Shown: positions 2,492 to 41,557 of the stretch, piece after piece
Layout: every line of letters starts with the position of its first letter
How positions within the stretch are numbered: position 1 is the first letter of the stretch
DNA from: Oerskovia flava
GTDB taxonomy: Bacteria > Actinomycetota > Actinomycetes > Actinomycetales > Cellulomonadaceae
Reading direction: 5' to 3'
Length of the DNA: 64,000 bases
Assembly (NCBI RefSeq): GCF_026163685.1
Contig: NZ_JAOXSR010000001.1
Span: 620,001 to 684,000, forward strand
Notes under the pieces: model-generated
Told to the model about the DNA's origin: nothing
The model's database searches: none
Seen by the model: the letters and a program-made list of their open reading frames with translations, nothing else
Position numbers and translations under genes: made by a program

Positions 2492-3757
2492 CTACTCTGC
2501 CTCGGCGAGCAGCCGCTGGATGCGCGAGACGCCCTCGACGAGGTCGTCGTCGCCCAGCGCGTAGGACAGGCGCAGGTAGCCGCTGGGGCCGAACGCCTCG
2601 CCCGGGACCACCGCCACCTCGACCTCCTCGAGGATGATCGCCGCGAGCTCCGCGGACGTCGTCGGGGTCCGTCCGCGCAGCGTCCTGCCCAGCACCCCCC
2701 GCACGTCCGGGTACGCGTAGAAGGCGCCCTGCGGCGTCGGGCACACCACGCCGTCGATCTCCGAGAGCATCGAGACCATGGTGCGCCGGCGGCGGTCGAA
2801 CGCCGCCCGCATCTCCTCCACGGCCGCGAGCGTGCCGGAGACGGCGGCGATCGCCGCCCGCTGGGAGACGTTCGCGACGTTGGACGTGAGGTGCGACTGG
2901 AGGTTGGTCGCGGCCTTGATGACGTCGGTGGGGCCGATCATCCACCCGACCCGCCAGCCCGTCATCGCGTACGTCTTCGCGACGCCGTTGAGCACGACGG
3001 TCGTGTCCGCCAGGGCCGGGACCGCGCGCACGATCGGCGTGAAGACCGTGTGGTCGTAGACCAGGTGCTCGTAGATCTCGTCCGTGATGACCCAGATGCC
3101 GTGCTCGAGCGCCCACTGCCCGATCGCGGCGGTCTGCTCGGGGGAGTAGACCGCGCCCGTCGGGTTGGACGGCGAGCAGAACAGCAGCGCCTTCGTCCGG
3201 TCGGTGCGCGCGGCCTCGAGCTGCTCGACGGTCACCAGGTAGTCCTGGTCGGCGCCCGCGAAGACCTCGACCGGCTCGCCCCCGGCCAGGCGGATGGCCT
3301 CCGGGTAGGTGGTCCAGTACGGCGCCGGGAGCAGCACCTCGTCCCCCGGGTCGACGAGCGCTGCGAACGCCTGGTAGACCGCCTGCTTGCCGCCGTTGGT
3401 GACGAGCACCTGCGACGGGTCGACCTCGTAGCCCGAGTCGCGCAGCGTCTTCTCGGCGATCGCCGTCTTGAGCGCCGGCAGGCCCCCGGCGGGGGAGTAG
3501 CGGTGGTTCGCCGGGTCGGCCGCGGCCTTGATCGCGGCGTCCACCACGTACTGCGGGGTGGGGAAGTCGGGTTCGCCGGCACCGAAGCCGATCACGGGGC
3601 GGCCCGCAGCCTTGAGGGCCTTGGCCTTGGCGTCGACGGCCAGGGTCGCCGACGGTGCGATCGCCGCGAGGCGTGCGGACACGCGTCGTCGGTCACCGGT
3701 CCCGGGGCCGGAGGTGGTGGCGCTGACAGGGCTCTCGGAGGAGGTGGGCTGGCTCAC
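2492..3757 (-). CDS. Pyridoxal-phosphate aminotransferase, aspartate aminotransferase type
   Basis: A 421-residue class I/II aminotransferase of the AspC subgroup Ib, expected to swap amino groups between aspartate and 2-oxoglutarate in the cytoplasm. Visible motifs are [12 protein letters not shown] near residue 58, [12 protein letters not shown] for substrate and PLP contacts, [12 protein letters not shown] with the PLP-ring Asp and Tyr, and [13 protein letters not shown] with the Schiff-base lysine at about K261. The GTG start gives an N-terminal tail of roughly 25 residues rich in Ser and Thr before the family core. A weak TANNNT-like box (CACGAT, 3764-3769) sits 6 nt upstream of the GTG. 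It is divergent from tRNA-Trp and secE, as in many actinobacterial genomes. Related transaminases use prephenate or other keto acids, so the exact substrate is inferred. Confidence 0.88.
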
Positions 3758-3871
3758 CCGCCCATCGTGTCAGATGCCCCCCGACGGCGTCACGGACGTC
3801 CGCGCACGCGCCGGTCCGGGCGGGTCCCAGGTGCCGGAAACGGTGCAGCCCGAGGACGGTCTCGCTCGCGG

Positions 3872-3901
3872 TTCGACCCTGCGCCGGGTCTCGCGTACAG
3901 T
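3872..3901 (+). promoter_or_regulatory. Probable promoter for tRNA-Trp/secE-nusG
   Basis: A -35 like TTCGAC (3872-3877) and a -10 TACAGT (3896-3901) are separated by 18 nt. Transcription would start near 3908, about 70 nt before the tRNA. This is the only good match in the 221-nt divergent region before the tRNA; the rest of that region holds nothing else I recognise. Confidence 0.5.
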
Positions 3902-3978
3902 ATTCCTTCGGTGGTTGACGTCACCCTCATGGGTCGTGCCTGCGGCGCGAGTCCGGAGCGGTGGGCGTCGGTCGTCGA

Positions 3979-4051
3979 AGGGTAGTGGCGCAATTGGTAG
4001 CGCAGCGGTCTCCAAAACCGCAGGTTGCAGGTTCGAGTCCTGTCTACCCTG
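3979..4051 (+). tRNA. tRNA-Trp (anticodon CCA)
   Basis: The 7-bp acceptor stem AGGGTAG/CTACCCT encloses a D arm, an anticodon arm with stem GCGGT/ACCGC and loop CTCCAAA, and a T arm with GTTCGAGTC. The anticodon CCA is at 4012-4014 and the discriminator base is G, as expected for Trp. The 3' CCA is not encoded. It lies 85 nt before secE, the conserved place for tRNA-Trp in Actinobacteria, and may be processed from a longer transcript. Confidence 0.97.
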
Positions 4052-4136
4052 CACAGCGTTCCCGCGAGGGGGCGCGTAGTCCGGCAACGGGTTACACCAA
4101 GAGGGGTTCAGTTCCAACACCACGTGGGGAAGAACA

Positions 4137-4412
4137 GTGAGCGAATCGCCGTCCGAGGCTGTGGGTGCTGAAGGCGCACGCGCCGACGGGGTGAAGAAGG
4201 GCCGCGACGCGAAGAAGCCCAACATCTTCGCCCGGATTGCCCTGTTCGTCCGCCAGGTGATCGCCGAGCTCAAGAAGGTCGTCACCCCGACACGGTCCGA
4301 GCTCATCACCTACACGACGGTCGTCCTCGTGTTCGTGGTGGTGGTCATGGCCTTCGTGACCGTCCTGGACCTCGGGATCGGCTGGGCAGCCTTCCAGATC
4401 TTCGCGGACTGA
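4137..4412 (+). CDS. secE: Preprotein translocase subunit SecE
   Basis: A 91-residue single-span membrane protein that clamps the two halves of SecY in the translocon. A charged N-terminal tail of about 35 residues leads into the amphipathic helix IARIALFVRQVIAELKKVV, followed by the Pro-Thr turn and one membrane helix (LITYTTVVLVFVVVVMAFVT). Length and plan match the short actinobacterial SecE. It starts with GTG and is followed by nusG, the near-universal bacterial secE-nusG order. The 135-nt gap before nusG carries no clear terminator, so the two genes are probably co-transcribed. Confidence 0.96.
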   Translation: MSESPSEAVGAEGARADGVKKGRDAKKPNIFARIALFVRQVIAELKKVVTPTRSELITYTTVVLVFVVVVMAFVTVLDLGIGWAAFQIFAD

Positions 4413-4547
4413 CGTCCGTACGACGGAACTCCCGGCCCGGAGCAGGTGCGGCGCCGGTCGGCGGACGCACGGTCGAGGCCGCGGCGCGCCGAGGAGATCC
4501 CCTTCAGAAGCAGAACTCGTAGCAGTCAGCAGAAAGCAGGTTCGTTA

Positions 4548-5384
4548 GTGTCCCAGGAGTCGCTGGACCAGACGGAGAACGTCGACCCCATCGAGCCCGG
4601 CGCCGAGAGCGCCGAGGTGGAGTCCGACGCACCTGCCGACACCGAGACCGACACGTCGGTCGAGGCTGACGCCACCACGCAGGACCCTACCGAGGACGAC
4701 GCTCCCGCCGACGAGCCCGAGGGCGACGACGAGGCCGCGGAGGCCGAGGGACGTGTCGACGAGGACGGAGACGTGCTCGACGACCTCGACCCGATCGAGG
4801 AGTTCAAGCGCGAGCTGCGCACGAAGCCGGGTGACTGGTTCGTCATCCACTCGTACGCCGGCTACGAGAACCGTGTGAAGGCGAACCTGGAGAACCGCAT
4901 CCAGAGCCTCAACATGGAGGACTACATCTTCCAGATCGAGGTCCCCATGGAGGAGGTCGCCGAGATCAAGAACGCGCAGAAGAAGATCGTCCGCCGCGTT
5001 CGGATCCCCGGCTACGTCCTCGTCCGCATGGACCTCACCGACGAGTCCTGGGGCGCCGTGCGGCACACCCCGGGTGTCACGGGCTTCGTGGGCCACACCC
5101 ACCAGCCGGTGCCGTTGACCCTCGACGAGGTGTTCTCGATGCTCGCCCCGACGCTGGCGCCGAAGCCGGAGGCGGGCAAGCCCGCGACCGCCTCGCAGCG
5201 GGCGCCGCTCGAGGTCGAGTTCGAGGTCGGCGAGTCGGTCACCGTCACGGACGGGCCGTTCGACACGCTGCCCGCCACGATCTCCGAGATCAACGCCGAG
5301 GCTCAGAAGCTCAAGGTGCTGGTCTCGATCTTCGGCCGGGAGACCCCGGTCGAGCTGTCGTTCGGTCAGGTCGCCAAGATCTGA
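4548..5384 (+). CDS. nusG: Transcription termination/antitermination factor NusG
   Basis: A 278-residue NusG that binds the RNA polymerase clamp and links it to the ribosome and Rho. The start is taken at GTG 4548, which has AAAGCAGG upstream; the frame is open further upstream but without family similarity. The first 85 or so residues are a very acidic tail rich in Asp, Glu, Ala and Pro, as in other Actinobacteria. The NGN domain begins at [19 protein letters not shown] and contains the polymerase-binding region. The C-terminal KOW domain is at [19 protein letters not shown]. The ribosomal genes rplK and rplA follow, the classic secE-nusG-rplKA cluster. Confidence 0.96.
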
Positions 5385-6899: not shown

Positions 6900-7502
6900 T
6901 CAGCCGTGGTGGGTGCCGAGACCGGGCAGGCGGTGCTGGTCGTGGGGGACGGCGTGCTCGCCGGCCTGCGTGTCCGCGAGGCCGGCGGTCGTGAGCGTTG
7001 CGACGAGGACGGCGGCGGCGAACAGGGCCAGCACCCGTCGGCCGGTGCGGTCCGTGGTGGCGGGGGCGGCGTGGTCGGGCGCGGGCTCGGTCTCGCGGCG
7101 CAGCCAGCGGGCGACGAGCACGGCCCCGAGGACCTGCAGCGCGACGACGGCGATCACGGCCGTTCCCGCGGGGCCGGACGCGGGTGGCGTGGAGAACGCG
7201 GCGGGGGCGCTCACCGCGAGGAGTGAGCCGAGCGTCACGCGCAAGATGGCCGGACCCGTCCGGCGGAGGGCGACGATCGCCCAGAGGACCTCGGCGAGGC
7301 CGAGCGCGGCCCCCCACGCTCCGGCGGCGCTGGTGAGGTCGCCCGCGGCGACGGCGAGGTTCACCAGCCCCGCCCCGAGCACGGCGAAGGCCGCAGAGAC
7401 GGCCAGGACGTCGAGTCCGCCGCGCGGGTCCGCTTGCGGGGCACGCGGCTCGGTGGTGGCGACGGTCGGGACCGGTGCTCGGGACGAGACGGGCGACGGC
7501 AC
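6900..7502 (-). CDS. Small multipass membrane protein with His-rich tail, unknown function
   Basis: I do not recognise a family. The chosen GTG start (7502) lies 5 nt after the stop of the DUF4383 gene and gives 200 residues; the frame is open further upstream but overlaps that gene. After about 30 Pro/Ala/Thr-rich residues come four hydrophobic segments (LDVLAVSAAFAVLGAGLVN, WGAALGLAEVLWAIVAL, LGSLLAVSAPAAF and IAVVALQVLGAVLVARWL). A charged loop and a fifth hydrophobic segment (VLALFAAAVLVATLTTAGL) follow. The last 20 residues contain five histidines (EHAVPHDQHRLPGLGTHHG), which could bind a metal. Tight linkage to a DUF4383 gene suggests a shared membrane role. Confidence 0.7.
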   Translation of the reverse strand: MPSPVSSRAPVPTVATTEPRAPQADPRGGLDVLAVSAAFAVLGAGLVNLAVAAGDLTSAAGAWGAALGLAEVLWAIVALRRTGPAILRVTLGSLLAVSAPAAFSTPPASGPAGTAVIAVVALQVLGAVLVARWLRRETEPAPDHAAPATTDRTGRRVLALFAAAVLVATLTTAGLADTQAGEHAVPHDQHRLPGLGTHHG

Positions 7503-7507
7503 GGGGG

Positions 7508-7918
7508 TCAGGCCGTGACGGGCCGGCGCTCGGCGGACTTCTCGGCGCCGAGGCCCGCGCCGAGCAGGATCAGGGCGCTCGCCAGGTGCAGCACGTTGTC
7601 CGCGCCGTTCAGCGCGATGATGTTGGCGGCCGAGCCCACGAGGAAGAGCCCGACGACCCCGACGAGCAGGTAGACCGCACCGACCGTCGTGTTCACGGAC
7701 CTGGCCGCAGACACCGACCGGGTCGCCGCGAGCAGCAGCGCCGCTCCGATCGCCAGGTGGATGACGTTGTGCAGCGGGTTGACGGCGAAGACGAGGAGGT
7801 TGGCGCCCTCGGTGCCGGCGAAGCCCACACCCGAGGTCACGGCGAAGCCTGCCAGCCCGACGAGCAGGTAGACGGCGCCGAAGACGGCGCCCAGGAGTCT
7901 GTTCGGGGACGAGGTCAT
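7508..7918 (-). CDS. DUF4383 domain membrane protein
   Basis: A 136-residue protein starting MTSSPNRLLGAVFGAVYLL. It has four hydrophobic helices, with the repeated pattern of a Gly/Ala-rich helix, the motif NPLHNVIHLAIGAALLL, a second helix pair and NGADNVLHLASALILL. The paired HN(V/I)xHL motifs are the hallmark of the DUF4383 family, which is common in Actinobacteria and has no established function. The two motifs look like an internal duplication of a two-helix unit. The ATG at 7918 is preferred because family similarity begins there. It is the first gene of a two-gene minus-strand unit. Confidence 0.82.
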   Translation of the reverse strand: MTSSPNRLLGAVFGAVYLLVGLAGFAVTSGVGFAGTEGANLLVFAVNPLHNVIHLAIGAALLLAATRSVSAARSVNTTVGAVYLLVGVVGLFLVGSAANIIALNGADNVLHLASALILLGAGLGAEKSAERRPVTA

Positions 7919-8256
7919 GATGGTTCCCACTTTCTGGTTCGTGCGTGGACGGTGTTCCACGGGCGGAGACGACCGAGGTTCGGAGCGCCGACCGCGGCGG
8001 ATGGGTCAGGACCGGCTCCCCAGGTGCCGGTCCCGGCGGGGGGCGCCCGTGCACCCGCCTCACAGGGATCTCGGCGGGTCTGTATCAAACGTCCCGCCCG
8101 TCCCTCTCTTGCGGTGACGGGCCCCGCCGGAGCCCCGCGCACGACGATGCCGTGGACGGACGGAGGAGATGGCTGCCCATGCACGTGCTTGTCCCCGCTC
8201 GTTGCTCAGCCCTAGACTCGGCTGATCCGGGGGGCGCCCCGACCCGACCCGACCGA
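7919..8256. other. Divergent intergenic region before the sigma/CHAT cluster
   Basis: A 338-nt gap separates the DUF4383 gene (minus strand) from the sigma factor gene (plus strand). Apart from the promoter at 8189-8218, I see no ORF with family similarity, RNA gene or repeat in it. Both genes must take their control signals from here. Confidence 0.5.
8189..8218 (+). promoter_or_regulatory. Probable promoter of the sigma/CHAT cluster
   Basis: A -35 like TTGTCC (8189-8194) and a -10 TAGACT (8213-8218) have an 18-nt spacer. The predicted start near 8225 gives a leader of about 30 nt before the first ATG of the sigma gene. The boxes look like a housekeeping promoter rather than an ECF target, so autoregulation by the encoded sigma factor is not evident here. 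Confidence 0.45.
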
Positions 8257-8916
8257 ATGAGCGTGCTATCTCGGATGACACGAACCTCGGAGGAACTTCC
8301 ATCCGTCGACGAGCCGGCCACGAGCCTCGGTGATCGCGGCGCGATCGCGCTGCTCGAGTACCGCGAGGGCCGGCACGAGGCGCTCGGCGAGTTCGTCCGC
8401 GAGGCGACCCCGCTCCTCTGGCACACCGTGCGGGCCCAGGGCGTCGACCGCGAGGCCGCGGACGACGTCGTGCAGAACGTCTGGGTCGCGCTGGTGCGCA
8501 ACGCGCAGACCATCAAGGAACCTCACGCGGTGCTCAAGTGGCTGCTCATCACCGCGAAGCGCGCCGCGTGGGAGACCGTGCGCAAGCACCGCGACGACCA
8601 GCACAAGCGCACCGAGCTCCCGGACGACCTCGACGACGGCGCCGTCGCGCCGCTGCCGTCCGCCGCCCCCACGCCGGAGGTCGAGGTGCTGCGCAACGAG
8701 CGCGACCGTGCGCTGTGGGGCGCGCTCGAGCGGCTCCCGGAACGTTGCCGGCGCCTGCTACGACTCATCTCCTTGGCGGACCGGCCTGACTACAAGTACA
8801 TCTCGAGCGCGATCGGCATGCCGGTCGGCAGCATCGGGTCCAACCGTGGGCGGTGCCTGGCGAAGCTCCGGGACATCTTCGAGACCGAGCAGGGGGCCGA
8901 GACATGGCAGGCATGA
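8257..8916 (+). CDS. ECF-like sigma-70 family RNA polymerase sigma factor
   Basis: A 219-residue two-domain sigma factor that would direct RNA polymerase to a private promoter set. A tail of about 30 residues precedes the sigma-2 region (LLWHTVRAQGVDREAADDVVQNVWVAL, then LKWLLITAKRAAWE with core-binding and -10 recognition helices, about residues 45-120). A Pro/Ala-rich linker leads to sigma-4 (ALERLPERCRRLLRLI with helix-turn-helix YISSAIGMPVGSIGSNRGRCLAKLR, about 150-208). No sigma-1.1 or sigma-3 is present. ATG 8257 and ATG 8275 are both possible starts; neither has a strong ribosome site, although GGAGGA lies just inside the gene at 8289. The stop overlaps the next gene. The link to protease genes suggests release from a partner by proteolysis. 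Confidence 0.85.
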   Translation: MSVLSRMTRTSEELPSVDEPATSLGDRGAIALLEYREGRHEALGEFVREATPLLWHTVRAQGVDREAADDVVQNVWVALVRNAQTIKEPHAVLKWLLITAKRAAWETVRKHRDDQHKRTELPDDLDDGAVAPLPSAAPTPEVEVLRNERDRALWGALERLPERCRRLLRLISLADRPDYKYISSAIGMPVGSIGSNRGRCLAKLRDIFETEQGAETWQA

Positions 8917-9413
8917 GGAGCGCGCCGTCCGGGTACAGCCCGGACGAGCCGCTGGACGAGGTGGACCTGCGCCTCCTGGACGACCTCGCGCGCCTGACCG
9001 AGATCGTCGACCCGGTTCCGGCCGGTCTCGTCGATCGCGCGCTGTTCGCCGTGACGCTCGCCGGGCTCGAGGCGGAGGTCATGGAGCTCGAGTACGTCCG
9101 CGCACCCGCGACGTCGGTGCGGGGGGACGCGCCGCCCGTCGAGGCGCGCACCATCACCTTCACGTCGGAGGCGGTCACCGTCATGATCTCGCTGTCCCCG
9201 ACGGACGACGGCCGCATCCGCATCGACGGCTGGGCGGCCCCGGCGACGTCGCTGCGTGTCGAGCTGCACCGACCCGGTGGCGTGACCGCGACGACGAGCG
9301 ACGACGACGGCCGCTTCGTCTTCGACGCCGTCGAGCGCGGGCCCGCGAGCCTCGTCGTCCGCCGCGCCGACGGCGCCGGCGGGGCCGTGAGCACCCCCGT
9401 CGTCGAGCTCTAG
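8904..9413 (+). CDS. Small soluble protein with a carboxypeptidase-regulatory-like beta domain; possible sigma partner or protease substrate
   Basis: This 169-residue protein overlaps the end of the sigma gene by 13 nt from ATG 8904, or by 4 nt (ATGA) from ATG 8913. The N-terminal half is helical and acidic (EPLDEVDLRLLDDLARLTEIVDP, then VDRALFAVTLAGLEAEVMELE). The C-terminal half resembles a beta sandwich: an ITFTSEAVTVMISL strand, then the pattern LRVELHRPGGVTATTSDDDGRFVFD of carboxypeptidase regulatory-like domains. No membrane helix, signal peptide or catalytic motif is seen. Translational coupling to a sigma factor is typical of anti-sigma factors. In the type III-E CRISPR loci a small protein holding a sigma factor is cut by a TPR-CHAT protease. 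That analogy is the basis for the suggestion; the function is not established. Confidence 0.75.
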   Translation: MAGMRSAPSGYSPDEPLDEVDLRLLDDLARLTEIVDPVPAGLVDRALFAVTLAGLEAEVMELEYVRAPATSVRGDAPPVEARTITFTSEAVTVMISLSPTDDGRIRIDGWAAPATSLRVELHRPGGVTATTSDDDGRFVFDAVERGPASLVVRRADGAGGAVSTPVVEL

Positions 9414-9467
9414 CACGCCCGGTGCCGTGCCGCGGTCGACCCGCGGCGCCTGGGCCCTGAACAACCG

Positions 9468-9487
9468 CGCGACGGGTCCCCGTCGCG
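9468..9487. repeat. Near-perfect palindrome upstream of the S8 protease gene
   Basis: Two 9-bp arms, CGCGACGGG and CCCGTCGCG, flank a 2-bp centre. The palindrome lies in the 137-nt gap between the small protein gene and the protease gene. It could be an operator or a weak attenuator hairpin; no T-run follows. Confidence 0.6.
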
Positions 9488-9550
9488 TGCACCGGACCGT
9501 GGCGCAGCCGCACGGCCGGCGACGAGACCTTCGTCCTCGAGGAGGAGCAC

Positions 9551-11341
9551 GTGAGCGAGACCCCTGAGATCCCCGATGCCCGCACGGTCCGCGACGCCGC
9601 GGGAGGGCGTCGTCCCGTCCGGCACCTCGACCCGGAGCGCGTCCGGCGCAGCCCGGGCGCCTCCCGCGTCGAACCCACGGCCTACGTGGCGGACCGCCTC
9701 ATCGTGCGCGGTGCGCCGCCCGCGGACCTGCGGGAGCTCGCCGATCCCGCGACGCTCCGAGCCGGCGGGTCCGCGGCCGAGGTTGCCCTCCCGGTCTGGG
9801 CGGAAGGCGAGGACGCGACGACGTGGCTCGACGGTGTCCGGCGCATCGCGGCCGACCTGGGCTACCAGGTCGTGTACGACGGGCGCCTCGGCGACCTCGT
9901 GACGGAGGAGGACACGCAGGAGGACGACGACACCTTCGGCTACGCGCTGAGGTTCGTGCCTGTCCGTCCGGACGACGTCGAGGCCGACACGTGGGAGGTG
10001 CTCGAGCGCATCGGCCGCGAGCTCGGCGACCTCGTCGAGGACGACGGGCTCGAGGCGCCCGCCGTCGGTCTCGACCACGTGATGCGTGCCCAGCGCCGCA
10101 CGACCCCCCTCCCGTTCGTCCCGGTCTCCCGACCTCGCTCGACGCCGCTCCCTGTGAGCGCCGTCGACGAGTACGGCGTACCCGGCTCCGGTGGGCTCGT
10201 CCCGGTCCGACTCATCTCCCCGCCGCCGGCGCGCCGCTTCGCCGACGGCCCGAACCCCTGGGTCACGGCGGACGGGTTCTCGCGTCCCGCCGTCGCGCTC
10301 GTCGACACGGGCGTCGGCTCGCACCCCTGGTTCGGCTCGTACGTGCCGGGGGAGCCGTCGGACGGACCCGACTCGGTCGTGGTGCGGGACGCCGAGCTCG
10401 ACGGGTCGCCGATCGGCACGTTCCCGATCCCGACGATCGACTCGGAGGACGCCGAGTACGGGGGCATGAGCAAGGACCCGCTGACGGGGCCGCTCGATCC
10501 GGTCGCCGGGCACGGCACGTTCCAGGCGGGCATCGTGCACCAGCTGTGCCCGGACGCGGTGCTGCTGTCGGTCCGCGCGTTCGGGGGGTCGGGCGACGTG
10601 CCCGAGTGGGAGGTCCTCCACACGCTGTGGCGGCTCCTGCGCTTCCACCGTCGTGGCCTGCGGGGCGACGACGGCTACCACCCGGTGGACGTCGTGGTGC
10701 TCGCGATGGGTTACTACCACGAGCAGCCGGAGGACTACGGCTACGACGGCCCGCTCCGGCGGGTCCTGCGGGCGCTGCGCCGGGCAGGGATCGTGGTGGT
10801 CGTCGCCGCTGGGAACGACGGGACGACCAGGCCCATGTTCCCCGCCGCGTGGACGCCGCGGGTGGACCGGACCGACGGCGGTGCGGTGCCCCGCAAGCCC
10901 GAGGACCTCAAGCCCGAGTACACCCCGATATTCGCCGTGGGCGCGACCAACCCGGACTCGACCATCGCTGTCTTCAGCAACGACGGGCCGTGGGTGACCA
11001 CGGTGAAGCCCGGCGCGGCCGTCGTCAGCACGATGCCGACGACCATCGACGGTCCGGTGACGCCGTCCGTCCGCCTCCCCGAGCGCCTGGGCCCGGGGGT
11101 GCGCTCGTCCGTCGACCCGGACGACTTCGGCGGCGGGTTCGCATCGTGGAGCGGCACGTCGTTCTCGGCGCCGTACCTCGCCGCGGAGATCGCCCGGGAG
11201 ATCCTCGTGTCTCGCGCGCAGCAGGGCGCCCAGGAGCCCAGCTCGGGTGTCGGGGGTGCCGCCGCGCACCGTACCGCCGGGGCGTGGGATGCTGTGCGAC
11301 GTGTGCCGGGACTGTTCGCGCAGGGAGTCACCACGGTGTGA
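9551..11341 (+). CDS. Cytoplasmic subtilisin-like (S8) serine protease
   Basis: A 596-residue S8 family peptidase. The catalytic triad can be placed at D252 (ALVDTGVGSHPWF), H321 (GHGTFQAGI) and S537 (SGTSFSAPYLAAEI). The oxyanion Asn is in VVVAAGNDG, and FAVGATNPDSTIAVFSNDGPW is a further family block. About 230 residues precede the catalytic domain and match no family I know. There is no signal peptide or membrane helix, so the protease should act inside the cell. GTG 9551 has GGAGGAGCAC directly upstream. The TPR-CHAT gene starts 21 nt downstream, so the two proteases are probably made together. Subtilisin-like proteases linked to CHAT or other caspase-like genes are known in bacterial conflict systems; assignment to such a system is inference. 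Confidence 0.9.
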   Translation: MSETPEIPDARTVRDAAGGRRPVRHLDPERVRRSPGASRVEPTAYVADRLIVRGAPPADLRELADPATLRAGGSAAEVALPVWAEGEDATTWLDGVRRIAADLGYQVVYDGRLGDLVTEEDTQEDDDTFGYALRFVPVRPDDVEADTWEVLERIGRELGDLVEDDGLEAPAVGLDHVMRAQRRTTPLPFVPVSRPRSTPLPVSAVDEYGVPGSGGLVPVRLISPPPARRFADGPNPWVTADGFSRPAVALVDTGVGSHPWFGSYVPGEPSDGPDSVVVRDAELDGSPIGTFPIPTIDSEDAEYGGMSKDPLTGPLDPVAGHGTFQAGIVHQLCPDAVLLSVRAFGGSGDVPEWEVLHTLWRLLRFHRRGLRGDDGYHPVDVVVLAMGYYHEQPEDYGYDGPLRRVLRALRRAGIVVVVAAGNDGTTRPMFPAAWTPRVDRTDGGAVPRKPEDLKPEYTPIFAVGATNPDSTIAVFSNDGPWVTTVKPGAAVVSTMPTTIDGPVTPSVRLPERLGPGVRSSVDPDDFGGGFASWSGTSFSAPYLAAEIAREILVSRAQQGAQEPSSGVGGAAAHRTAGAWDAVRRVPGLFAQGVTTV

Positions 11342-11362
11342 CCCCTGCCCGGGGGTGGTCGT

Positions 11363-13939
11363 GTGAACGACGACGTGCGTCGCGCGTTCGCCGACCGCCT
11401 CCGCCGGGCGCAGGAGCTCAACGCGTTGTCGAAGGTCCGCCCTGCCTCTCGTGAGTTCCGTCGGCTCGTCCGGGACGTCGAGCAGTGGGAGGTGGAGTCC
11501 GGGGCCACTGACTGGTCCCGGGAGACCCGGGTCCGCGCACTCGTGGGCGAGGCGGCCTGCGTGTACGCGCTCACGGGGAGCATCGAGGCGGGGGGCGAGG
11601 TGCTGACGCGGGCGCAGGAGGCCGCCGGCCTGCTCGACGACCGGCTCCGCGGCCTCGTCCACGGTCAGCACGGCGTGCTGCTGCTCCGGTCGGGGGACAG
11701 CAAGGCAGCGGTCCGGCCGCTGACGGTCGCCCTCGAGCTCGCCGGTCCTGCCGATCATCGCGACCGCACGGTGCTGAGCCTGAACCGAGGCTCGGCCCTC
11801 GTCGACATCGGTGCCCTCGACGAGGCCCTCGCCGACTACGAGACGGCGCTCGAGCACGCCCGCCTGGTCCAGAACGACCACTACGTCTCGTTCGCGCTGC
11901 ACAACATCGGGTACATGCACCACGTCCGGGGCGACATGCCGGCCGCGCTGAAGTCGTTCGACGAGTCCGTGACGCTCCTGCCGGACGGTCCGGACGGGCT
12001 CGCGCTCGTGGGGCGTGCCCGTGTGCTGTACGAGGTCGGCCTGCTCTCGGAGGCCGAGGTCGCCCTCGCCGAGGCGGCGGAGCTCCTCGCCGACGACGGT
12101 CTGGCGCAGGAGCGTGCCGAGGCGCTGCTCGACCGCGCCCGCTGCCTGGTCGGCCTGCGTCGGTACGACGACGCCCGGGCGCTCGCGGGGCAGGCGCGCC
12201 GTCTGTACGCGCGATCGGGGAACACCACCTGGAGCCTGTACGCCCGCGTCGTGGAGCTCGAGGCGATGCTCGCGTCCGACCGTGCGGGCCAGGACGCGGC
12301 ACGGCGGCGGTTGCGCCGGCGCAGCGTCCTCGCGCTGGACGTGGCGCGCGAGGGCGACGCCCGGGGGGCGGTCGCGCGCTTCGGGGTCAGCGTGCCCGCC
12401 CGACTCCACGCGGCGGAGTGGGAGATCCTCGCGGGCGGGCTCGACCGGGCTCGCGACGTCCTCGCGGAGGTCCCACGGCTGCCGGGGTGGGCCCCCTTCC
12501 CGGTCCGGGTGCAGCACCAGGCGGTCCGCGCGCAGCTGGCGTTCGCGCTGGGGGACCGGCGCAGCGGCGTACGCGCGGTGCGGGGCGGCCAGCGGGCGAT
12601 CTCGGAGCACCGGGCACGGCTCGGCTCGGTGGACGCGGTGACGGCTACGGCGGTCCACGGCGTCCGGCTCGGCAACCTGGACGTCGAGGCCGCGCTCAGG
12701 ACGGGTCGTGCGGCGGACGTCTTCGACGCGGTGGAGCGCGGGCGCGCGACCTTTGCCGGATCGGGACGCGTCCGGCCACCCTCCGACGCGGCGCTCGCCG
12801 CGCTGCTCACCGCGGCCCGGCGCGAGATCGAGTCGGCACGGGACATCGGCGCGAGCGGCGCCGGCGAGGAGCAGCTCCGGCGCCAGCAGCACCTGCGCGA
12901 GGCGCGTCGTCTTCAGGACGAGGCACGGCGACGGTCCTGGCGGATCGGGGGCGAAGCTGGGACCCCGGCGCCCACGACGACCCGGGCGCTCCGTGCGGCC
13001 CTCGCGGGCGACGGGTCGGACGCGGTGGTCGCCGACCTCGTGCTGTCGGGCGGGGACGTGGTCGCCGTGCGGGTCTCGCGGGAGGGCTCGCGCCTGGTCC
13101 GCCTCGCGCCCCTCGACGCGGTCGCCGAACGGGTGCGGCGCGCGCGGGCGGACTTCGCGGTGCTCTCGAACGCTCTCATCCCAGCCCCGATGCGGGCGGC
13201 CGCAGTGTCCTCGCTGCAGCGCACGCTGACCTGGCTCGACGACGCCCTCGTCGCCCCGCTGGGTGCTGACGGAGATCTTCACGTCGCGGCGCGCAACCTC
13301 CTGCTGGCCGTGCCGTGGGCGAGCCTGCCGTCCCGCCACGGGCTGCGGACGTGGGCGAACTCGTGGGTCGACCTCCGCCACGGCTTGCCGCTCCGACGTC
13401 CGGGCGAGGCGCTCGTCGTGGCGGGACCGGGGCTGCGGTTCGCCACGGCGGAGGCGAAGCTCGTCGCGGGGGTGTGGGACGACGCCCGTGTGGTGTCGGG
13501 CTTGCAGGCGACGTGCGCCGAGGTGGTCTCGCGCCTCCCGCGGGCAGGGGTCGTCCACCTCGCCGCGCACGGCACCCATGACATCGACAACCCGCTGTTC
13601 TCGTCCCTGCGGCTCGCCGACGGCCCGCTCTTCGCCCACGAGCTCGACGGCATCGACCTCGACGGTGTGGTCGTGGTCCTCTCCGCGTGCGAGGTGGGCC
13701 TGTCGACGCCGCGCGTCGGGGGAGAGTCGCTCGGTCTGACGAGCGTCCTGCTCCGGCTCGGCGCACGAGCGGTGGTCGCGAGCGTGGCGCCGCTGCGGGA
13801 CGACGTCGCGGCACGGGTCATGCCGGCGCTGCACGCCGAGCTGCGGGACGGCGCGATGCCGGGCGTCGCCCTCGCGCGGGCCGTGGCGGACGAGCCCGAG
13901 CCCGTCCCGCTCGTGTGCTTCGGCCCGCTGGTGCTGTGA
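11363..13939 (+). CDS. TPR-CHAT protein (caspase-like cysteine protease with tetratricopeptide repeats)
   Basis: An 858-residue protein. Residues 40-320 contain repeated helical pairs with the TPR pattern (ALVDIGALDEALADYETALEHA, ALHNIGYMHHVRGDMPAALKSF and others). A middle helical region of about 250 residues rich in Arg and Ala follows. The C-terminal CHAT domain (about 620-858) has the dyad His736 (VVHLAAHGTHD) and Cys776 (VVVLSACEVGLS), both conserved. CHAT domains are clan CD proteases related to caspases and separase; TPRs usually sense a partner or substrate. GTG start. It is the last gene of the sigma/small protein/S8 cluster and is followed by a weak hairpin. The most likely role is regulated cleavage of a partner protein, perhaps the small protein or the sigma factor. 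Confidence 0.9.
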   Translation: MNDDVRRAFADRLRRAQELNALSKVRPASREFRRLVRDVEQWEVESGATDWSRETRVRALVGEAACVYALTGSIEAGGEVLTRAQEAAGLLDDRLRGLVHGQHGVLLLRSGDSKAAVRPLTVALELAGPADHRDRTVLSLNRGSALVDIGALDEALADYETALEHARLVQNDHYVSFALHNIGYMHHVRGDMPAALKSFDESVTLLPDGPDGLALVGRARVLYEVGLLSEAEVALAEAAELLADDGLAQERAEALLDRARCLVGLRRYDDARALAGQARRLYARSGNTTWSLYARVVELEAMLASDRAGQDAARRRLRRRSVLALDVAREGDARGAVARFGVSVPARLHAAEWEILAGGLDRARDVLAEVPRLPGWAPFPVRVQHQAVRAQLAFALGDRRSGVRAVRGGQRAISEHRARLGSVDAVTATAVHGVRLGNLDVEAALRTGRAADVFDAVERGRATFAGSGRVRPPSDAALAALLTAARREIESARDIGASGAGEEQLRRQQHLREARRLQDEARRRSWRIGGEAGTPAPTTTRALRAALAGDGSDAVVADLVLSGGDVVAVRVSREGSRLVRLAPLDAVAERVRRARADFAVLSNALIPAPMRAAAVSSLQRTLTWLDDALVAPLGADGDLHVAARNLLLAVPWASLPSRHGLRTWANSWVDLRHGLPLRRPGEALVVAGPGLRFATAEAKLVAGVWDDARVVSGLQATCAEVVSRLPRAGVVHLAAHGTHDIDNPLFSSLRLADGPLFAHELDGIDLDGVVVVLSACEVGLSTPRVGGESLGLTSVLLRLGARAVVASVAPLRDDVAARVMPALHAELRDGAMPGVALARAVADEPEPVPLVCFGPLVL

Positions 13940-40708: not shown

Positions 40709-41557
40709 GTGTTCGGCCGGGATCGGATCGAGTACAAGAGTGCGGAGCAGATCGCCACGATGCGTCGGGCGGGGCTCGTCGTCGCGCAGACCCTGCGGAC
40801 GGTGCGTGAGGCCGTCCGTCCGGGCATGACGACGGCGGACCTCGACGCCCTCGCGGCGGTGGTCATCAGCGACGCCGGCGCGACCCCGTCCTTCCTGGGG
40901 TATCACGGGTTCCCGGCGACGCTCTGCGTGTCGGTGAACGACGAGGTCGTGCACGGCATCCCGGGCCCTCGCGAGCTGCGGGCGGGTGACGTGGTCTCGG
41001 TGGACTGCGGGGCGATCGTCGACGGGTGGCACGGTGACTCCGCGATCTCGTTCGTGCTCGACGCCGCCTCCGGGGACGGTGCCGATCCCGGTGACGTCGC
41101 GCTCGTCGAGGCGACCCGCGCCGCCATGTGGGCCGGTATTGCGGCCCTCGCAACGGGGGAGCGCCTGGGCGACGTCGGGGGTGCGATCGAGGACTCGATC
41201 ACGGCCTCGTCCGCGGCCGACGGCGTGCCGTACGGGATCATCGAGGAGTACGTGGGCCACGGCATCGGTTCCGCGATGCACCAGCCGCCTGAGGTCCTCA
41301 ACTACCGGACCCGTGAGCGAGGCGCCCGGCTGCGCCCGGGGATGTGCCTGGCGATCGAGCCGATGGTCACGCGCGGCGAGCGGTTCACGCAGGTGTGCGA
41401 GGACGACTGGACCGTCGTCACCGACGACGGGTCCCGTGCCGCGCACTGGGAGCACAGCGTCGCGATCCTCGACGACGGGATCTGGGTCCTCACGGCGGAG
41501 GACGGCGGCGCGAGCGAGCTCGCACCGCTGGGTGTGCAGGTGGCGCTGCCGGTCTGA
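40709..41557 (+). CDS. map: Methionine aminopeptidase, type I
   Basis: A 282-residue metalloenzyme that removes the initiator methionine. Metal ligands are seen in SVDCGAIVDGWHGDSA (two Asp), GHGIGSAMHQPP (His), AIEPMV (Glu) and WEHSVAI (Glu). GTG start 18 nt after adk. No N-terminal zinc finger extension. Confidence 0.96.
   Translation: MFGRDRIEYKSAEQIATMRRAGLVVAQTLRTVREAVRPGMTTADLDALAAVVISDAGATPSFLGYHGFPATLCVSVNDEVVHGIPGPRELRAGDVVSVDCGAIVDGWHGDSAISFVLDAASGDGADPGDVALVEATRAAMWAGIAALATGERLGDVGGAIEDSITASSAADGVPYGIIEEYVGHGIGSAMHQPPEVLNYRTRERGARLRPGMCLAIEPMVTRGERFTQVCEDDWTVVTDDGSRAAHWEHSVAILDDGIWVLTAEDGGASELAPLGVQVALPV

Follow-up and report, generated by a model that had tools for sequence, protein, structure and literature searches.

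In type III-E CASP, the protease Csx29 cuts a sigma inhibitor, Csx30, and in this way controls CASP-sigma (PMC10028731). In the CalpL-CalpT-CalpS system a protease likewise cuts an anti-sigma factor, releasing a sigma factor of the extracytoplasmic function (ECF) type (PMC11417357), and in Myxococcus DdvS controls a defense island (PMC4374960, PMC12288465). A further group of ECF sigma factors, the mainly actinobacterial ECF54, is described as having neighbors with subtilase, CHAT and carboxypeptidase domains (PMC8999054). Here we analyze a locus of Oerskovia flava that can be compared with each of these. In the window, by which we mean the whole 64,000-nucleotide stretch under study (contig NZ_JAOXSR010000001.1, positions 620,001 to 684,000), four genes encode an ECF-type sigma factor, a small soluble protein, a subtilisin-like S8 serine protease and a cysteine protease that joins tetratricopeptide repeats (TPRs) to a CHAT domain. 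These four genes are a real unit, widespread across Actinomycetota in several orders. Our preferred reading, to which we would give somewhat less than an even chance, is that of a CRISPR-free, protease-gated sigma switch of the ECF54 type: the CHAT protease would cut the small protein after an invariant arginine, Arg73, and the sigma factor so freed would amplify the operon.

The four genes are adjacent and co-directional (all on the + strand) and lie between rplA and rplJ, the ribosomal genes being named by eye. All of the open reading frames put forward in an earlier note on this DNA were confirmed, and Pfam assigned a domain to each product except the small protein. The sigma factor gene (8257..8916; alternative start 8275) matches Pfam Sigma70_r2 at 1.2e-7 and Sigma70_r4_2 at 0.0039, the latter below cut-off; the NCBIfam sigma70-ECF model, which spans sigma2 and sigma4, matches above its cut-off at 3.8e-18, and the best PDB matches are ECF sigmas. 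Next comes the gene of the small partner (8904..9413; alternative start 8913), a protein of 169 residues that gene order and an AlphaFold2 (AF2) model lead us to regard as a predicted anti-sigma factor and protease substrate. The S8 protease (9551..11341; Pfam Peptidase_S8, 3.3e-15) has a conserved N-terminal region and no signal peptide, and the TPR-CHAT protease (11363..13939; Pfam CHAT, 2.7e-24, plus TPRs) closes the module. The catalytic residues named in the earlier note stand in the right positions and are kept in every aligned homologue that covers them: D252 (67/67), H321 (67/67) and S537 (68/68) in S8, where N422 is also conserved, and H736 and C776 (72/72 each) in CHAT. The invariance of the latter pair argues for catalysis. 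At the D813 position, which we take to be where CHAT proteins may hold an acidic pocket residue, 66 of the 71 aligned homologues have D, four have E and one has A.

The likeness of the TPR-CHAT protein to Csx29, to which the earlier note had pointed, is borne out by the fold. In the AF2 model (predicted local distance difference test, pLDDT, 82.6), a long superhelix of TPRs is joined to a caspase-like region made up of two parts, a pseudo- and an active caspase half, as in Csx29. Among the 1000 chains ranked highest by Foldseek, the best fold comparisons were with Csx29 (Z 25.1, 497 residues aligned; root-mean-square deviation 7-16 Å over whole chains), the protease domain of separase (Z 23.8, 3.3 Å, 305 aligned) and Myxococcus DdvA (Z 21.6). 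Foldseek itself placed human separase first (2.6e-11), and by sequence the closest solved structures are DdvA (5.9e-11) and then the TPR-CHAT protein of Craspase (3.2e-7). The curated NCBIfam model of Csx29 was not passed (26.7 bits; cut-off 300). Separase is a eukaryotic cohesin protease, and separases cut after Arg. The CHAT half superposes on the separase protease domain, with 16% identity in the structural alignment.

Against the background of the parts of the literature cited here, the module shares a TPR-CHAT protease of the same fold and an ECF sigma factor with type III-E CASP, the sigma-inhibiting substrate being established there and predicted here. It differs in having a partner of 169 residues instead of 565 and an additional serine protease; moreover, the cut in Csx30 falls at 427-429, within a loop without an essential residue (PMC10028731), whereas Arg73 is invariant here. 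Cas7-11 was not seen beside the window genes, where the flanks are ribosomal by eye and no systematic scan of the loci was run. With CalpL-CalpT-CalpS the module would share the proteolytic release of an ECF sigma from an anti-sigma factor, as proposed here; CalpL, however, is a Lon-SAVED protease that belongs to a type III CRISPR system and responds to cyclic oligoadenylate (PMC11417357). DdvA-DdvS (PDB 8rot/8rw5) also ties a TPR-CHAT region to an ECF sigma, but in DdvA the CHAT part lies within a transmembrane anti-sigma factor, whereas here CHAT is a separate protein with its catalytic H and C kept and with a separate small partner. In the EACC2-caspase systems the genes of an ECF sigma and of a TPR protein lie close to that of a caspase-superfamily protein, and a transcriptional outcome is proposed; their domains are EACC2 and DUF1822, and the sections of PMC8195603 on them describe no S8 or small beta-sandwich partner. 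Conflict systems with caspase or trypsin domains appear in PMC8195603 and PMC7159879, in the cited parts without the present four-gene layout. Another known system with a CHAT protein is the SAVED-CHAT/PCaspase cascade.

The module also matches ECF54, in that an ECF sigma with sigma2 and sigma4 has subtilase, CHAT and carboxypeptidase-type neighbors (PMC8999054). The system is therefore not the undescribed one that the earlier note had supposed, since its neighborhood is already listed there. We place the module in ECF54 by gene neighborhood only, and the carboxypeptidase-type neighbor is represented here solely by the small protein, whose CarboxypepD_reg match is sub-threshold. The published reading, in the section concerned, is one of proteolytic control without an anti-sigma factor; in contrast, we take the carboxypeptidase to be a nonenzymatic small protein with an invariant arginine, and add a motif and a candidate regulon.

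To follow the module across genomes, relatives of S8 at E<=1e-30 were collected from 39 close and 248 order-level genomes (overlapping sets), of which 11 and 35, respectively, had a match. With nine named loci added and five duplicates (L056, L057, L092-L094) dropped, this first set comprised 45 stretches, including the window; weak S8 matches in G012, G015, G019, G028 and G038 (E from 1e-8 upwards) stand outside these counts. The earlier note had held that a functional unit of four genes would be in doubt if they did not co-occur in other genomes. This was examined, and all four were together in 45/45 S8-anchored stretches, a count made with profiles that were built from some of these 45 loci. 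Of 296 genomes sampled across the phylum, 25 have the small protein (E<=1e-6) and 36 have CHAT (E<=1e-40); eight have S8 at the strict cut of E<=1e-40. Small protein and CHAT occurred together in 24 genomes, the small protein alone in one, CHAT alone in 12 and neither in 259 (Fisher p=2.4e-25, which, the genomes being related, is not a true probability). A second set of 38 stretches took in every small-protein place that the first set lacked, together with 14 more CHAT places, leaving out seven of the 41 CHAT places (G409, G420, G441, G463, G524 and two of G534). Eighteen of these 38 hold all four genes. In six genomes (G302, G344, G376, G419, G446 and G492) the small-protein place and the CHAT place are apart; sigma is present at 4/7 of the former and an S8 match at 6/7 of the latter.

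A search for homologous clusters in Actinobacteria, as the earlier note had proposed, thus upheld co-occurrence but not a fixed gene order. In the first set, sigma-small-S8-CHAT accounts for 32/45 stretches and S8-sigma-small-CHAT for 11/45, with two more sorted slightly differently. In the second set, where 28 stretches have a small gene, we found CHAT< S8> sigma> small> in six, S8< CHAT> sigma> small> in five and sigma> small> CHAT> S8> in four (arrowheads give gene direction), and others besides. Genomic places differ by group as well and include a ribosomal operon, a cysteine-synthase-like gene and a GTPase/proB-like region. The flanks look housekeeping by eye, no systematic flank scan for defense genes having been run. 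Throughout this variation the small gene directly follows sigma in 67/69 loci and overlaps it in 49/64 gene-called pairs. Since sigma almost always stands directly before the small gene and the positions of the proteases shift, we regard sigma and the small protein as a tight pair.

A hydrophobic segment near the N-terminus (19-residue mean hydropathy >1.6 within the first 45 residues) is present in none of the 40 sigma, 44 small, 43 S8 and 45 CHAT proteins of the first set, which fits a cytoplasmic location, as the earlier note had it for S8. Beyond the N-terminus the same value is exceeded in three small, nine S8 and 24 of the 45 CHAT homologues. The window proteins stay at or below 1.53, the maximum of the window CHAT protein, which also has no anti-sigma match in Pfam. 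In the phylum-wide set, the S8-labeled protein of L152 has a signal-like stretch at its start, by eye.

The small protein is where the argument for proteolysis is centered. Its only Pfam match, CarboxypepD_reg, covers residues 112-155 at 1.3e-4 (22.6 bits; cut-off 32.3) and recurs at E<=0.1 in 27 of 33 homologues. No enzyme domain was found in it by Pfam or NCBIfam, and no peptidase domain is among the 13 Pfam families listed for the 33 homologues. The “carboxypeptidase” of the published neighborhood is probably this protein. Neither Pfam nor NCBIfam gave a significant anti-sigma match for the protein or its homologues, one of the 33 matching CnrY at 0.044, which is chance level. An AF2 model based on 10 sequences (mean pLDDT 68.9) predicts helices at 19-34 and 42-58 (block means 47-75), a disordered linker at 55-78 (pLDDT <50) and a beta-sandwich at 82-154 (block means 70-92); Foldseek found no match to this model at E<=0.001. 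In an alignment of 74 homologues, which form 68 clusters at 90% identity, 55 at 70% and 32 at 50%, just four positions never vary: three belong to the sandwich (G109, G136 and F138), and the fourth is Arg73 of the linker. Arg73 (codon 9120..9122, + strand) is followed by G in 35 homologues, S in 24, A in 11 and T in 4, and preceded by V in 59/74. An invariant Arg that always precedes a small residue and lies in a linker predicted to be disordered has the look of a protease site, with Arg73 as candidate P1 residue and a predicted cut at R73/G74, and it lends weight to the idea in the earlier note that the small protein may be a protease substrate.

We also considered S8 or CHAT as a zymogen cut at a conserved Arg and dropped the idea, as neither family has an Arg conserved in more than 93% of sequences (columns occupied in >=85%). 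In the lack of such a residue in the two proteases, the small protein is the best substrate candidate. The sigma family, for its part, has eight Arg conserved above 93% in well-occupied columns, among them R53 (39/39, followed by a small residue in 38) and R191 (40/40, small residue in 35). An Arg-small pair by itself is thus no proof of a cut site, and the argument for Arg73 leans on its linker position as much as on the pair.

A second line of evidence comes from the DNA upstream of the module. Spaced word pairs upstream of module genes were compared with 608 other upstream regions of the same loci, and dyad enumeration gave one motif family, [TC]GTATCA(G)-N16-CTC. In the window, TGTATCA-N16-CTC lies at 8081..8106 (+ strand), 193 bp ahead of the sigma ATG at 8275, and is a candidate sigma-dependent promoter. 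A looser form occurs upstream of sigma, S8 or small in 43/81 loci, compared with 15/608 controls, and GTATCA upstream of sigma in 28/48, S8 in 25/57, small in 2/14, CHAT in 1/43 and controls in 24/608. Spacings from GTATC[AT] to CTC in the module upstream regions cluster at 16 (41 cases, with 1 at 15, 7 at 17, 5 at 18 and 6 at 19). With profile-based gene starts, the N16 motif stands within 450 bp of the first gene in 33/45 loci and in 40/2250 random windows drawn from these loci; with N15-17 the count in the first set is 36/45. A second copy in the opposite direction is present in 10/45. Across ten module-bearing genomes, YGTATCA-N16-CTC occurs 25 times, compared with eight for a reversed control, and includes the module in 8/10; G007, G020 and G203 have no copy other than that of the module. 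Ten further genomes gave 44 sites (control, 17), and the window's genome 16 of GTATCA-N15-17-CTC, that of the operon among them (reversed-pattern control, 4). The motif at the module suggests autoregulation. By these counts the sigma factor, if it reads the motif, would mainly control its own module.

The serine protease may differ between lineages. The closest named S8 relatives are from Cellulosimicrobium (76-84% identity in the best segment). A gene for a trypsin-like/NAL1-like S1 protease adjoins the module or CHAT in five loci (L088:8789-10231, L090:4576-5982, L125:10971-12452, L132:9332-10861 and L154:9598-11115). Pfam and streptogrisin matches of these genes are weak and below curated cut-offs, with none for L154, the catalytic residues being recognized by eye; the module motif lies upstream in 4/5. 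In L132 and L154, no S8 gene of the stretch analyzed passes the threshold (one may lie elsewhere in the genome), which leads us to propose that S1 takes the place of the serine protease there. Arg73 is kept in these two genomes, where S1 and not S8 is beside CHAT. Separately, L091 has a second subtilase gene right after CHAT (3213-4586, - strand; Peptidase_S8, 9.7e-45), and 75 bp ahead of it stands a copy of the motif with spacing 17. The anti-phage models of PADLOC 2.0 gave no specific match for the module genes: only BovA (8.3e-4) for CHAT, a generic subtilase match (2.4e-4) for S8 and nothing for sigma and the small protein. Phage-borne copies were sought with the S8 profile, which found just two distant relatives in viral contigs (25-26% identity).

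One could envision the switch as follows. In the resting state the helical hairpin at the N-terminus of the small protein would hold the sigma factor. The TPR superhelix may read a cytoplasmic signal, for which the earlier note suggested stress or phage, and activate the separase-like CHAT part. The latter would then sever the disordered linker of the small protein after Arg73 and so separate the hairpin from the beta-sandwich. The freed sigma factor would transcribe its own operon from TGTATCA-N16-CTC, and the amplification would yield more sigma, small protein, S8 and CHAT, with S8, or S1 in some lineages, presumably acting as a downstream or second-step protease.

Several points weigh against this reading. 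ECF54 is said, in the section devoted to it, to have no anti-sigma factor (PMC8999054). The hairpin is modeled at low confidence, with no proven anti-sigma homology, and the best Foldseek match of the small protein (2.7e-3) is a carbohydrate-binding module. The role of Arg73 could instead lie in folding or in contact with sigma, and the R53 and R191 pairs of sigma sit within conserved sigma regions. The motif was found post hoc in the same sequences; control upstream regions are also in excess at spacing 16 (12, with 4 each at 17 and 19), some controls with the motif being module neighbors that carry it, and the second set is weaker (7/24 with N15-17, from crude start estimates). Finally, nothing favors CHAT over S8 as the cutter except the persistence of Arg73 in the two S1 genomes.

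In some genomes the module motif also stands ahead of further lytic or effector-like genes. Four further GTATCA-N16-CTC sites in the window's genome were considered as a regulon, and three were treated as chance: one at window position 40900, inside an open reading frame (L191 1210-2058); one at C1:524734, ahead of a gene for 174 residues; and one at C2:146606, near a Cas3 gene (Cas3_HD, 2.2e-40) and facing an apparently gene-free stretch. The motif in this last region (L182:900-2500; genome C2:146400-148000) is about 190 bp from the divergent Cas3 gene; in type III-E, sigma sites are also found at cas genes (cas1) (PMC10028731). The fourth site, C1:851614 (N16), with a second copy (N17) at 851663, precedes a gene for a Tle1-like phospholipase (L180:1615-2875; genome C1:851614-852874) far from the module. 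Orthologues of this gene at E<=1e-20 were present in 6/13 genomes examined, with GTATCA-N17-CTC 78 bp upstream in L251 and 51 bp upstream in L253 and none in L249, L250, L252 and L254.

HopA1-family genes lie by the module in L125 (13648-15974), L065 (5466-6398), L068 and L095, with Pfam support in L065 and L125, and a five-gene family that includes these proteins has the motif upstream in 3/5. In L125 a LanC-like gene follows the HopA1-family gene, and this neighborhood is possibly a lanthipeptide-type cassette under the module sigma. A gene for a LuxR-type AAA regulator (L138:11913-13886 and L140:3320-5176; Pfam for L138) adjoins CHAT where the order is CHAT< S8> sigma> small>, and the motif lies 33 bp ahead of it. 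In five loci of a related group a second motif copy stands just after CHAT (L071:4242, L079:4556, L083:4383, L069:14838 and L073:10872); no consistent open reading frame for a small gene was found behind such copies in six regions, the gene of L073 beginning 247 bp beyond, and transcription of a small or an antisense RNA could begin at the copy.

It is tempting to speculate, though we hold it doubtful, that the module is a self-contained caspase/subtilisin cascade, with the separase-like TPR-CHAT as initiator that cuts an anti-sigma factor at a fixed Arg, and a regulon made up of roughly the cascade itself and lytic or effector-like genes (second serine protease, Tle1-like, HopA1-family). Such a commitment switch with positive feedback would work without CRISPR, possibly lead to programmed death or abortive infection and possibly be older or wider than the CRISPR versions.

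Whichever genes the sigma factor may serve, the cutter itself can be questioned. It is unlikely, in our estimate, that a serine protease (S8, or S1 in some lineages) cuts at Arg73 and that TPR-CHAT is an upstream activator or mainly a nonproteolytic sensor. DdvA, a transmembrane anti-sigma factor with a TPR-CHAT-like region, is the closest solved relative of CHAT by sequence, and its TPR-CHAT part may likewise be mainly nonproteolytic; S8 and S1 proteases can be Arg-directed, and an S1 gene is beside CHAT in the two loci without S8. The invariant H736 and C776 speak for a proteolytic CHAT, however, and Arg73 stays where S8 is not beside it. Quite unlikely, too, is that the small protein is no anti-sigma factor but an adaptor or effector switched on by cleavage, with the released hairpin or beta-domain acting itself and sigma merely driving expression of the operon. 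This would account for the missing anti-sigma domain and for a beta-domain as conserved as the hairpin, and Csx30 too is drawn with a potential effector domain (PMC10028731). The near-constant order of sigma and small gene, commonly overlapping, speaks against it. A sigma gene followed by an overlapping partner gene is the usual sigma/anti-sigma layout.

The published view of ECF54, that there is no anti-sigma factor and that the clustered proteases degrade sigma itself, is stated in section 3.3 of PMC8999054, and the sigma family does have its own conserved Arg-small pairs at R53 and R191. We consider it improbable for the present module: the “carboxypeptidase” is probably the small protein, with a sub-threshold regulatory match of 44 residues and no peptidase domain, and the invariant site in a predicted disordered linker belongs to that protein. 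That the four genes are mere neighbors with no mechanistic link is strongly disfavored and hardly credible, for although one locus group keeps a single place (rplA-rplJ), where vertical descent alone could preserve the cluster, and L069 has five other genes between S8 and CHAT, the same four genes recur in at least five orders and at several places of the genome that are unrelated to one another.

On the rplA side of the module, the window holds, after rplA, a DUF4383 gene and a second, unassigned gene (6900-7918, - strand), relatives of both of which recur in four loci (the window, L047, L048 and L054).

Returning to the protease-gated switch, our additions are a new assignment for the small protein, its invariant Arg site and a motif directed at the module itself; the neighborhood was already known. 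In the cited parts of the literature, a CHAT protease has been shown to control a sigma inhibitor by proteolysis only as a CRISPR accessory. If our reading is true, a CRISPR-free module across Actinomycetota would be the general form of this protease-sigma logic. With its two conserved proteases, a single candidate promoter and a single, invariant candidate cut site, the module makes of the unexplained ECF54 group a testable circuit.

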